This document shows, one piece after another, positions 8,519-38,468 of a stretch of 64,000 bases of DNA (its first letter is position 1; each line of letters starts with the position of its first letter). The DNA is taken from the NCBI GenBank assembly GCA_001599295.1, contig BCGN01000001.1, positions 1,426,001 to 1,490,000 on the forward strand, in the 5' to 3' direction. The notes under the pieces are model-generated. The model made no database searches. It worked only from the letters and a program-made list of their open reading frames with translations, and had not been told where the DNA came from. The DNA comes from Sporopachydermia quercuum. Its lineage: Eukaryota > Ascomycota > Sporopachydermiomycetes > Sporopachydermiales > Sporopachydermiaceae. The position numbers were made by a program, and so were the translations under genes.

Positions 8519-10394
8519 ATGCAATCGATAGATCAGGGATTGTGGAGACTGATAGAAGTTTTGAAAGGCACAAGAGCTATCGAGTGGAATTTCATGCAAG
8601 CGGATCTTGAAGAGCATGTTGATGCACTAAAAAGGGCAGACACCTGGGGGAATTTTATGAATAAATTAACAGTAATTGACCTATCAATTGCTTGTCTGTG
8701 TTTGGCTATAACATATTTGATTTATGATTATGTTTATGAGCCGTCATTTCCGGACAAAATAAAAGGAATCCCTTCAGTTCCGGGATTACCAATTGTAGGG
8801 AATCTATTACAAATATCTAAGAAACCAGTAAGAACATTTGATGAATGGAGTCGCCAGTATGGGGAAGTGTTTCAAGTTCGATATGGAAACAGGAGAGTCG
8901 TAGTTGCAAACTCTTACGATTCTGTTAAGAACATATGGGTTGAGAATTCTCGTGCAAGCAATTCTCGGCCAACGTTTTACACATTTCACACGATATTGTC
9001 ATCCACTCAGGGTATTCATTACCTCTACTAGCTTTTATATGTGACAAGAAGAAACTGTAGACATCTTTGTTATACTAATATCATAATAGGTTTCACGATT
9101 GGTACAACTCCATGGGGCCCCTCATTTCTAAGGAAAAAGAAACTGGTAATGTCAGCGCTAAATAAAGTGAACACTCAGTCATATTCTCCAATTATTGATA
9201 AAGTAACCAGACGACTAGTCAAAAAGCTATGGGAAACATCTACCGATATTTCGTTCAGAAGTCATCCCACGGGCATTTATTTCAGAGATATAATACGGAA
9301 GTTTGCTTTGACAATTAGTCTGAGACTTACCTATGGTAATGGGTACAATGAAGCTTCAACTGATTTATACCCAGAGATTGTTGAAGTTGAAGCTGAAGTA
9401 CTGAAACTGAGATCACATACGGGTAAGAATTTACAAGACTTTATACCGTTATTGAGATTCGTCAACATATTATGTTTCGGCAAGTGTGAGAGGCCTCAGG
9501 ATATAAGAGACAGACGAGATAAGTATATGAACGAGTTGATGGTCAGTTTGAGAGAAAAAATTGACAATGAAACAGATGAAATGTGTATTGTAGGGAACGT
9601 CCTAAAGGATATTAAGAAAGAACAATCCCCAATAGCAAAAGGTATTATAACTCCTAATCTATTAGTTCAAAGAAAAATCTATCTCTGATAATTGAGCATG
9701 CCATTAACACAAATTACTTCACCCAGATGAGTTGAATAGTATATGCCTCTCCATGGTATCTGCTGGAATAGATGGGATATCTACAACATTAACGATAGCT
9801 TTAGGAATGCTATCACGACCTGTTTCGGGGAAAAGAATTCAAGATAAAGCATACAAAGCAATTATGCAAGAATACCCTTTTGGTGTTATTGAAGCTTGGA
9901 ATAAATGCCCTTATGAATCCAAAGTCCCATATATTATAGCAATGGTTAAGGAGAGTTTAAGGTACTCATCAGTTATAACTTTAGGCTTACCACGAGAAAC
10001 AACAGCAATTATCAACTATAGAGGCTCCATAATACCGAAAGGTACGATGCTAATCTTAAACACTTACACTACAAACAGGGATGAGAAATATTACGCGAAT
10101 CCAGATGAATTTTATCCTGAAAGATACTTGGATTGGGATAAAGGCATTGAACATTTTTCTTATGGAGCAGGGTTAAGAATGTGCGGAGGTTATAATCTAG
10201 CAAACAAAGAACTATATGTGGTTCTTTGCCGTTTAATCTGCATGTTTGAAATTCGTAGAGCTGATACCGAGACAATGCAATACGATATACTTGAAGGTCA
10301 GGATGATACTGGTGGATTAGTCCTCAATCCGAAAGAATTCAGGTTGAAATTTGTTCCTCGTAGTTCAAATGTTCAAAAAGCAATATTTAGTTGA
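8519..10394 (+). CDS. Cytochrome P450, CYP504 (phenylacetate hydroxylase)-like
   Basis: Three exons, 8519-9011, 9090-9641 and 9727-10394, join in frame to 570 residues. Introns are GTATTC...TACTAAT...TAG and GTATTA...CATTAAC...CAG, both phase 1. P450 hallmarks are an I-helix AGIDGIST (about 361-368), ExxR as ESLR (424-427), PERY, and the heme loop FSYGAGLRMCGG with the cysteine ligand near residue 501. The SRPTFYTFH and GFTIGTTPWGPS blocks resemble CYP504 phenylacetate 2-hydroxylases of filamentous fungi, which feed homogentisate catabolism; that assignment is by recalled family similarity. A membrane helix lies at about 50-69 after an unusually long 49-residue leader, so Met47 (8657) is a possible true start and would better fit the usual length of about 520. 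A different substrate is possible. Confidence 0.8.
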
Positions 10395-10481: not shown

Positions 10482-10595
10482 TGATTGCTGAGAGATTCGA
10501 ACTCTCGCCTCTTACGAGATCCGAATGCTCGATGTTTGTTAACACCTAAGAATAAATCTTGAGTCGGACGCCTTAGACCACTCGGCCAAACAACC
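10482..10595 (-). tRNA. tRNA-Leu(CAA) with intron, copy 1
   Basis: Reverse-strand reading gives acceptor GGTTGTT pairing with AGCAATC, a D-arm with GGCCGAG, anticodon stem TCCGA/TCGGA, anticodon CAA in loop CTCAAGT, a 13-nt variable arm typical of leucine tRNAs, and T-arm GAGAG-TTCGAAT-CTCTC. A 32-nt intron sits one base 3' of the anticodon, the canonical nuclear position. The mature tRNA is 82 nt before CCA. A run of T on the transcribed strand just past the 3' end is a Pol III terminator. It decodes UUG. Confidence 0.96.
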
Positions 10596-11012: not shown

Positions 11013-11126
11013 TGATTGCTGAGAGATTCGAACTCTCGCCTCTTACGAGATCCGAATGCTCGATGTTTGTTAACACCTAAGAATAAATCTTGAGTCGGAC
11101 GCCTTAGACCACTCGGCCAAACAACC
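11013..11126 (-). tRNA. tRNA-Leu(CAA) with intron, copy 2
   Basis: This copy is identical in sequence, including the 32-nt intron, to the one about 530 bp away at 10482-10595, and lies in the same orientation. The flanks are unrelated beyond the T-tract terminator, so the repeat unit is the tRNA itself. The internal A and B boxes are intact. Confidence 0.96.
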
Positions 11127-30362: not shown

Positions 30363-32414
30363 ATGCAGCTCTCTTGGAAGGACATTCCGGTTGTTCCAAC
30401 CGCCCCAGAGTAAGTATTTCACAAGTAGACAGCTGCACAGACAGTATAATCTTATGATAGCATGAAAGATTAGAAGAAACTGTTGTTAACAGTTGCTTCA
30501 TGAAACAGATTTACTAACATTGATAATAGTTGTCTGGATATTGTTTTGAACAGAACTCAAAGAAAAACTCCAACAGTTATTCGACCTGGTTTCAAGATTT
30601 CAAGAATCCGAGCATTTTATATGAGAAAGGTCAGATTTACCGCTGACGGATTTTGCGAGAAATTTGAAGAACTTGTTGAAGGATTTCCCAAGATTGACGA
30701 AATTCATCCATTCTACAGAGATTTGATGGATACATTATATGAGAAGAATCATTATAAAATCTCTTTGGCTTCAATCTCTAGAGCCAAGTCATTAATTGAG
30801 CAAGTTTCTCGTGATTATGTTCGTTTATTGAAGTTTGGGCAATCATTGTTTCAATGTAAACAATTAAAGCGTGCAGCTCTTGGTCGTATGGCTACAATCG
30901 TTAAGAAATTAAAAGATCCTTTACAATACTTAGAGCAAGTTAGACAACATTTGGGTCGTCTTCCATCTATTGATCCTAACACTCGTACTTTATTGATCTG
31001 CGGTTATCCAAACGTCGGTAAATCATCATTCTTGAAATGTATTACCAGAGCTGATGTTGATGTTCAACCTTATGCTTTCACAACGAAATCTTTATATGTT
31101 GGTCATTTTGATTACAAATATTTACGTTTCCAAGCTATTGATACTCCAGGTATCTTAGATCGACCTACAGATGAAATGAACAATATTGAAATGCAATCTA
31201 TTTATGCTATTGCTCATATTAGATCAACTGTTTTATATTTTATGGATTTGTCTGAACAGTGTGGGTTTTCTATTGAAGCTCAAGTCAAATTATTCAATTC
31301 TATTAAGCCTCTGTTTGCTAATAAATCAGTCATTGTTGTGATAAACAAAATTGATATTGTTAGACCTGAAGATCTTACTGAAGACAGACAAGAATTATTG
31401 AAAGAAATTACTGAAACTGCTGGTGTTGAGATCATGCAATTATCTTGTCACGAAGAAGAAGGTATTATGGATGTTAGAAACAAAGCTTGTGAGAAGTTAT
31501 TAGCTTCTAGAATTGAACAAAAATTAAAGGGTACTTCAAGAGTGAATAATGTTTTGAACAAGATTCACGTTTCCAAACCTCAACCTCGCGATGATATTGT
31601 TAGAGAACCATATATTCCTGAAGAGATCAAGGCCTTAAAGAAGTACAGTATTGATGATCCTGAAAGAAGAAAATTAGCTAGAGATATTGAGGCAGAAAAT
31701 GGTGGTGCCGGTGTATACAATATCAATCTTAAAGACAAGTATTTGTTGGAAGACGATGAATGGAAAAACGACATTATGCCTGAAATGCTTGATGGTAAGA
31801 ATGTTTATGATTTCTTTGATGCTGACATTGCTGAGAAGTTGAAACAGCTTGAGGAAGAAGAAGAAAGACTTGAAGCAGAAGGATTTTATGAATCTGATGA
31901 AGAAATTGACGATGATGAAGCGCTTGATATCAAAGAGAAAGCTGAGTGGATTCGTAATAAACAAAAGGTAATGAGGAATGCTGCTAGATCCAAGAAGGCT
32001 CTTAAGAATAGGGCGTTGATTCCTAGAAAGCAAACCAAAAAGTCCTTGGCCGAAATGGAAGATCATCTGGAGTCTATCGGTGCATCTACATCTATCGTTG
32101 AAAAGAAACGGAAAGCCGCTGTACTTAAAAGAAGAACAAGAGCCAGTGGTGCTGATGTTGTTATGGATGAATCTACTGAAGCTGAATCAACTCTTAGTGG
32201 TAATGCTGTTGTACCTAAGTATCAAGCCAATAAATACACTAATGGTGTAAGTGATGAAAATATGAGAAGCAGATCAGAAAGATTGAAGAAGATATCTCAA
32301 AGGGAACGTAATAGAAATGCTAGAGTTGGTGAAGCTGATCGTCATCAAACTGTAGCTCTTCCAAAACATTTGTTTTCAGGTAAACGGAAAATGGGTACTA
32401 ATGATTTCCGTTAG
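30363..32414 (+). CDS. NOG1: Nucleolar GTPase Nog1, 60S biogenesis factor
   Basis: Essential Obg/Era-type GTPase that binds pre-60S particles in the nucleolus and leaves in the cytoplasm together with Rlp24. Exons 30363-30409 and 30530-32414 join at phase 2 to 643 residues. Exon 1 encodes MQLSWKDIPVVPTAP, matching the known Nog1 start, and exon 2 resumes with LDIVLNRTQRKTP. A four-helix N-terminal region precedes the G domain: G1 GYPNVGKSS (174-182), G3 DTPG, G4 NKID. The NOG-C block KLARDIEAENGGAGV and the tail FSGKRKMGTNDFR are intact. The CTG at 31311-31313 sits at the invariant Leu of IKPLFANKS, so CUG reads as leucine. Intron: GTAAGT, TACTAAC, then TAG. Confidence 0.97.
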
Positions 32415-36880: not shown

Positions 36881-38468
36881 ATGTCTCAAGGAACATTATA
36901 TGCTTCTTCTGTAAGTGGATTCATTAACGGTAGAATACTGCTGACAATGTATAGGAGTGTAATCTGGTCAGTGATCTCTATCTATGATATTGATTCGGAA
37001 TACTAGTAAAATTTATAAATGGTCTTGAAAACGGACATATCACTAATATTTCAATAGAGCTGTCGTGCCTTTTCTGCTAAGGCATTGATCAAGTACTTCA
37101 ACCTTGATATTGAAGTCAAGGACAGAGACGATGTCTATGCAAAGAATTTTCCTTTAGCAAGAGTGCCTGCCTTCCTTGGCCCCAAGGGATTCAAGCTAAT
37201 CGAAGCTCTTGCCATCAACTTTTATAGTATGTTTTATTTGGACAAAGTATACACTATTGTTTTAACTGATTTCGTAACTGGAATTTAGTTGCTTTTGCTT
37301 TGCTATGATGAAAAAATTCTTATTAAAACAGTTATCCCTGTCTTAATCACCATGTGTTGAGAATTTATACTCTGAAACAACAAACATCAGTTACAACTAT
37401 TGAAAATTCTTCCTTTCTATGATTTTGTTGCTAACACGTTATTTAGTTCTTTCTTTGGTTCCTGACAATAAGTTGGAAGGTAAGAATGATATTGAAAAAG
37501 TTGAGATCTTGAAATGGTTATCACTTTCCAATAGTGATTTCTTAGGAGCTATTGGCGAAGGTTTCAAGGGCGTCATCGGAAGAGCACCTTACAATAAGAA
37601 GACTACTGATGCTGGTAATGAATTGGCTCTCAAGATTGTTGATGCATATTTCGAACCTAGATTGAAGGAATACACTTACTTGGTTGGTGAAAGACTCACT
37701 ATCGCTGATTTGTATGCTGCTGCCCTTGCTACTCGTGGTTTCAACTATCTTTGGGGCGATGAATTCATCAAGGCCCATCCTGGTTTTGTCAGATGGTTCA
37801 AGACTATAATTAGCACTCCTATACTTGCTTCTCTTTATGAGGATTTCGAATTCCTCAAGGAACCTATCAAGTACACTCCTCCTAAGAAGGAGTCAAAGAA
37901 GAAGGCTGAACCTAAGCCCAAGGCCGAAGTCAAGAAGGAAAAAGATGCGGAAGATGTTGAAGACGCTCCTGCTCCTAAACCTAAGCATCCCTTAGAAGCT
38001 TTAGGTAAGTCTAAGATCCCTATTGATGAATGGAAGAGAACTTACTCCAACGAAGAAACAAGAGAAGTTGCCCTTCCATGGTTCTGGGAACATTATGATC
38101 CTTCTGAATGGTCTCTCTGGAAAGTTGCTTACAAGTACAACGATGAACTTACTTTGACTTTCATGTCCAACAACTTAGTTGGTGGTTTCTTCAACAGATT
38201 GAGTGCTTCTACCAAATACATGTTTGGATGTATGGTCGTCTATGGTGAAAACAACAATAACGGTATCATTGGTGTTTTCCTAGTCAGAGGTCAAGAAGCT
38301 GCACCTGCTTTTGATGTTGCTCCTGATTGGGATTCTTACACTTACGAGAAGCTAGATGCTTCTAAGCCTGAGGATAAGGCTTTCGTTGAAGACTTATGGG
38401 CCTGGGACAAGCCTATTGAGGTCAACGGTGAAAAGAAGGAGATTGCCGATGGTAAGGTCTTCAAATAA
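36881..38468 (+). CDS. TEF4: Translation elongation factor eEF1B gamma
   Basis: This is the gamma subunit of the eEF1B nucleotide-exchange complex for eEF1A; S. cerevisiae has two copies, TEF4 and CAM1. Exons 36881-36910, 37058-37226 and 37447-38468 give 406 residues. The start MSQGTLYASS is family-typical. A GST-like N domain (PLARVPAFLGPKG) and C domain (YTYLVGERLTIADLYAAAL) span about 1-215, then a Lys/Glu/Ala linker, then the eEF1-gamma C domain (EEWKR-type start, PWFWEHYDPSEWSLW, LVGGFFNRLSASTKYMFG) to the end, ending DGKVFK. Codon use in exon 3 looks biased (AAG, GGT, GTC frequent), as expected of a highly expressed gene. The 220-nt second intron, the longest in the window, carries a snoRNA, as in S. 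cerevisiae TEF4. Confidence 0.97.
37300..37380 (+). ncRNA. SNR38: Box C/D snoRNA snR38 within TEF4 intron 2
   Basis: Box C ATGATGA is at 37305-37311 and box D CTGA at 37372-37375. A D'-like CTTA lies at 37342-37345 and a C'-like GTGTTGA at 37354-37360. A short terminal stem (TTGCT 37300-37304 with AACAA 37376-37380, one mismatch) closes it. The 13 nt before D' (37329-37341, CAGTTATCCCTGT) are perfectly complementary to the conserved 25S rRNA stretch ACAGGGATAACTG beside the peptidyl-transferase centre. The base five positions upstream of D' pairs with the middle G of GGG, which corresponds to yeast G2815, the known snR38 target. S. cerevisiae snR38 also resides in the TEF4 intron. The rRNA sequence is recalled, not present here. 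Confidence 0.9.

Follow-up and report, generated by a model that had tools for sequence, protein, structure and literature searches.

The closest described system is that of Saccharomyces cerevisiae, where the TEF4 intron is reported to host the box C/D RNA snR38 (PMC2705663, PMC3454408), with the modified site given as Gm2815 (PMC5199042; PMC8307265) and the complementarity of the snoRNA situated around nucleotide 2815 (PMC8527467); a table value in PMC3511168 is printed as 2812. The corresponding Rfam family, RF00213 (snoR38), spans plants, human and fungi, and Arabidopsis, human and yeast members are tabulated in PMC3511168. In Fusarium, the snR38 level is described as dropping on deletion of the gene for the debranching enzyme, i.e. 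as being Dbr1-dependent (PMC9606315). The Neurospora crassa homolog of snR38, named CD23, is described as intronic. Hosts of snR38-family RNAs vary between kingdoms, the human host being SNHG16.

Here we describe an snR38 locus in a window of 64 kb (the whole stretch of DNA that was analyzed). A sequence-only reading had placed this snoRNA in the second intron of the eEF1B-gamma gene, an assignment now borne out by a match to RF00213 and by identification of the host gene. The locus shares with snR38/TEF4 of S. cerevisiae the host gene, the reported target and, to about a nucleotide, the position of the intron.

The host gene and its snoRNA

The host gene has three exons (36881-36910, 37058-37226 and 37447-38468), which when joined encode a stop-free protein of 406 aa containing EF1G (163.5 bits) and GST domains. 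The best two PDB chains for this protein, 1nhy and 1pbu, are both named elongation factor 1-gamma. The gene is organized as follows.

36881..36910 (+), eEF1B-gamma (TEF4/CAM1-like) exon 1, with start codon and GTAAGT donor
36911..37057 (+), intron 1, 147 nt, with GTAAGT, CACTAAT and AG
37058..37226 (+), eEF1B-gamma exon 2, an open frame linking exons 1 and 3
37227..37446 (+), intron 2, 220 nt, host of snR38, with GTATGT donor, TGCTAAC branch site and TTTAG acceptor
37431..37435 (+), CTAAC core of the branch site TGCTAAC, with the branch A at 37434
37447..38468 (+), eEF1B-gamma exon 3 including the EF1G domain (open frame, domain match)

The host frame is intact only when both introns are removed: retention of intron 1 leads to a stop after 41 residues and retention of intron 2 to a stop after 86. 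The TEF4 passages of PMC2705663 and PMC3454408 speak of one intron, whereas the gene here has an extra upstream intron of 147 nt, in which no snoRNA was found and which (36911-37057) gave no Rfam match at gathering thresholds. The earlier remark that intron 2 is the longest in the window is at most provisional; a consensus scan of the window returned longer intron candidates on both strands, as signal matches and not as gene models. Elsewhere in the window, an intron-like stretch of 120 nt (30410-30529, +), with GTAAGT and TACTAAC, stands immediately upstream of a frame that resembles the GTPase NOG1 but lacks its first residues. Three consecutive open frames at 8519-10394 (+), which together resemble a single cytochrome P450, may reflect either introns or a broken gene.

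The snoRNA within intron 2 comprises the following elements.

37298..37382 (+), snR38 box C/D snoRNA (RF00213), score 65.6 bits (gathering threshold 45), E 5.8e-9
37305..37311 (+), box C, ATGATGA, read in the sequence
37329..37341 (+), 13-nt guide CAGTTATCCCTGT, predicted antisense to 25S rRNA around Gm2815, from complementarity to rRNA letters not taken from this species
37342..37345 (+), box D', CTTA, from the sequence and the Rfam alignment (RF00213 consensus CUGA)
37355..37360 (+), box C', TGTTGA, from the sequence and the Rfam alignment
37372..37375 (+), box D, CTGA, from the sequence and the Rfam alignment

Scanning of the 64 kb window with cmscan (Rfam 15, gathering thresholds) gave three matches, snoR38 and two tRNAs. 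The snoR38 match is full-length, covering positions 1-91 of the 91 in the RF00213 model. The four boxes C, D', C' and D that had been read inside 37300-37380 were all located there; C (ATGATGA) and D (CTGA) are both present, with 71 nt spanned from C to D, and the branch A of intron 2 lies 59 nt beyond the end of box D. Box D' is indeed degenerate, as had been noted, with CTTA where the RF00213 consensus has CUGA. The RF00213 outer stem is poor at this locus, three of its seven pairs being non-standard. An external stem that might replace it was considered and rejected: the 30-nt flanks share no complementary word of more than 6 bp, a length that was reached in 2318 of 5000 shuffles and is at chance level. 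A strong terminal stem is missing from many intronic C/D RNAs.

The two tRNA genes (10482-10595 and 11013-11126, both on the minus strand) are identical over 114 nt, lie 531 bases apart start to start and have an intron each. By our own reading they are probably tRNA-Leu(CAA); ARAGORN, run with bacterial settings, reported none.

Guide, target and copy number

The guide at 37329-37341 directly adjoins the D' box on its upstream side and forms a perfect 13-nt Watson-Crick pairing with ACAGGGATAACTG, which we take to be the peptidyl-transferase-center target of snR38 in 25S rRNA, the letters not being taken from this species. Against the same letters, the D'+5 base is the C at 37337, opposite the middle G of GGG. 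Both the perfect antisense element and the claim that the D'+5 rule lands on the equivalent of G2815 thus hold for these letters. Even when up to 2 mismatches were allowed, a 22-nt pattern of the peptidyl-transferase center had no occurrence in the assembly, nor did the 5.8S rRNA family match there, so the rDNA seems to have been left out of the assembly.

We consider it about 96% probable that intron 2 of eEF1B-gamma carries an snR38 that is processed from the lariat and guides methylation of the G2815 equivalent. From what is known of the family, we infer that the locus is transcribed and processed, assembles into a snoRNP and directs methylation. Intron 2 would be spliced out and its lariat debranched, after which exonucleases would trim the debranched intron up to the box C/D snoRNP. 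The D' guide would then anneal over its 13 nt to 25S rRNA in the peptidyl-transferase center, and fibrillarin (Nop1) would add a 2'-O-methyl group to the G that corresponds to S. cerevisiae G2815.

We searched the whole genome (16,393,282 bases in 12 contigs, with full scoring for 62 of 5747 first-look candidates) for RF00213 and found a single locus over the cut-off. A separate snR38 gene elsewhere would have spoken against the assignment, and none over the cut-off was found; the 15-base guide word CAGTTATCCCTGTCT likewise has one exact occurrence genome-wide, at the snR38 locus. The sole other match at E ≤ 1, of 24.9 bits on C6, lies on the strand opposite a 735-codon open frame and was rejected as a second copy. 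Of 14 prokaryote genomes used as controls, 4 likewise gave RF00213 matches at E ≤ 1, all short of the cut-off, and scores of about 25 bits are therefore attributed to chance. A guide word with one mismatch on C4 was also rejected as a copy, since such words amount to no more than the reversed-pattern control (2 forward, 1 reverse); an Rfam scan of its locus, taken up to E 1, gave nothing.

Counting against a functional snR38 are CTTA instead of CTGA at D', the poor outer stem with its non-standard pairs (3/7) and the chance-level external stem. A degenerate D' box and weak terminal pairing could mark a decayed copy, the working gene lying elsewhere or in unassembled sequence, and given that no rDNA was found, the assembly may be incomplete in other places too. 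However, no second match over the cut-off was present among the fully scored candidates, and the guide (13 nt), box C (7 nt) and box D (4 nt) are all intact; we regard decay as very improbable.

The intron site relative to S. cerevisiae TEF4

The functional snR38 favored here can be compared with its S. cerevisiae counterpart at the level of the intron site. The TEF4 intron-removal primers in Table 3 of PMC2705663 stop at the codons for Ala-Leu-Ala-Ile-Gln-Phe-Tyr and resume with GTGGCTAATCAA, and intron 2 of the present gene comes after Ala-Leu-Ala-Ile-Asn-Phe-Tyr plus one base. The snoRNA-bearing intron of this eEF1B-gamma gene therefore matches that of S. cerevisiae TEF4 in position, give or take about one nucleotide, the amino-acid reading of the primers being our own translation and the exact S. 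cerevisiae intron phase not being fixed by them. Given the same gene and the same codon boundary, common descent appears to be the simplest reading of the shared eEF1B-gamma/snR38 pairing, in support of the earlier suggestion that it predates the split of these lineages. Independent entry of snR38 into this intron, once in the present lineage and once in Saccharomyces, would draw on the reported mobility of snoRNA genes within genomes (PMC3511168; PMC8476143), but is scarcely credible in view of the identical gene and codon boundary and the retention of three other S. cerevisiae host-guide pairs, two of them by sub-cut-off matches.

Further host-guide pairs described from S. cerevisiae

Five pairs were examined, snR38, U18, snR191, snR39/59 and snR44 with their respective hosts. 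ASC1 (U24) and IMD4 (snR54) are further host-guide pairs of S. cerevisiae. Four of the five (snR38, U18, snR191 and snR39/59) are kept, two of these (U18 and snR39/59) on matches below cut-off, and since most of the tested pairs persist in this way, retention of snR38 is not special among the S. cerevisiae host-guide pairs in this genome.

The ortholog of eEF1B-alpha (EFB1) is located at G000:C4:402083 and has a second intron of 398 nt in phase 2; the primers of PMC2705663 place the S. cerevisiae EFB1 intron at the same codon boundary. Within this intron we detected SNORD18 (U18-like; L006:975-1062, G000:C4), with a score of 29.9 bits (E 0.016) where the cut-off is 41; it was the sole match in a scan of two loci, eEF1B-alpha and the C4 guide-word locus. 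U18/EFB1 is thus found here too, as a sister-subunit arrangement equal to snR38/eEF1B-gamma but with a different guide and target. One could speculate that the alpha/U18 and gamma/snR38 pairs were kept by selection coupling elongation-factor output to rRNA methylation, and not merely by the cost of intron loss, although we consider this unlikely.

The snR191 RNA is kept in NOG2, in an intron of 608 nt (L007:883-1104, minus strand, G000:C7; 75.2 bits, E 1.1e-15). In RPL7, an intron of 430 nt that precedes the main exon contains three overlapping snR39/59-like C/D matches (L008:2250-2364, minus strand, G000:C3), all below their cut-offs, with scores of 36.6, 30.1 and 28.2 bits and E values of 0.19, 0.37 and 0.056, respectively, and these carry ACCATCTTTCGG. 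Since the scan table also contains matches that are surely due to chance, to a miRNA family (E 0.24) and a tmRNA family (E 0.21), the snR39/59 call is based on place and guide letters and not on score. A second RPL7-like gene (L009) gave no snoRNA match.

For snR44 in RPS22, scans of L010 (to E 1) and of L013 (G000:C1:475300-476500; to E 5) gave no snoRNA match; L013 includes the RPS22 intron, of 264 nt. Neither SNORD18 nor SNORD2 was matched genome-wide at E ≤ 0.001, and the controls were also silent; scans of the expected hosts gave the sub-cut-off SNORD18 and RPL7 C/D matches that the genome-wide searches had missed. The non-detection of snR44 is likewise no proof of absence.

The locus is a newly identified example of a guide RNA that is already known and conserved, and represents ordinary biology. 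It adds one more genome with snR38 retained in an eEF1B-gamma intron, where three more of the host-guide pairs of S. cerevisiae have apparently survived as well, and the retained pairs agree with the tendency toward retention of snoRNA-bearing introns described in PMC4202332 and PMC8476143. The finding leaves current views of snR38 unchanged, and its value is one of annotation.
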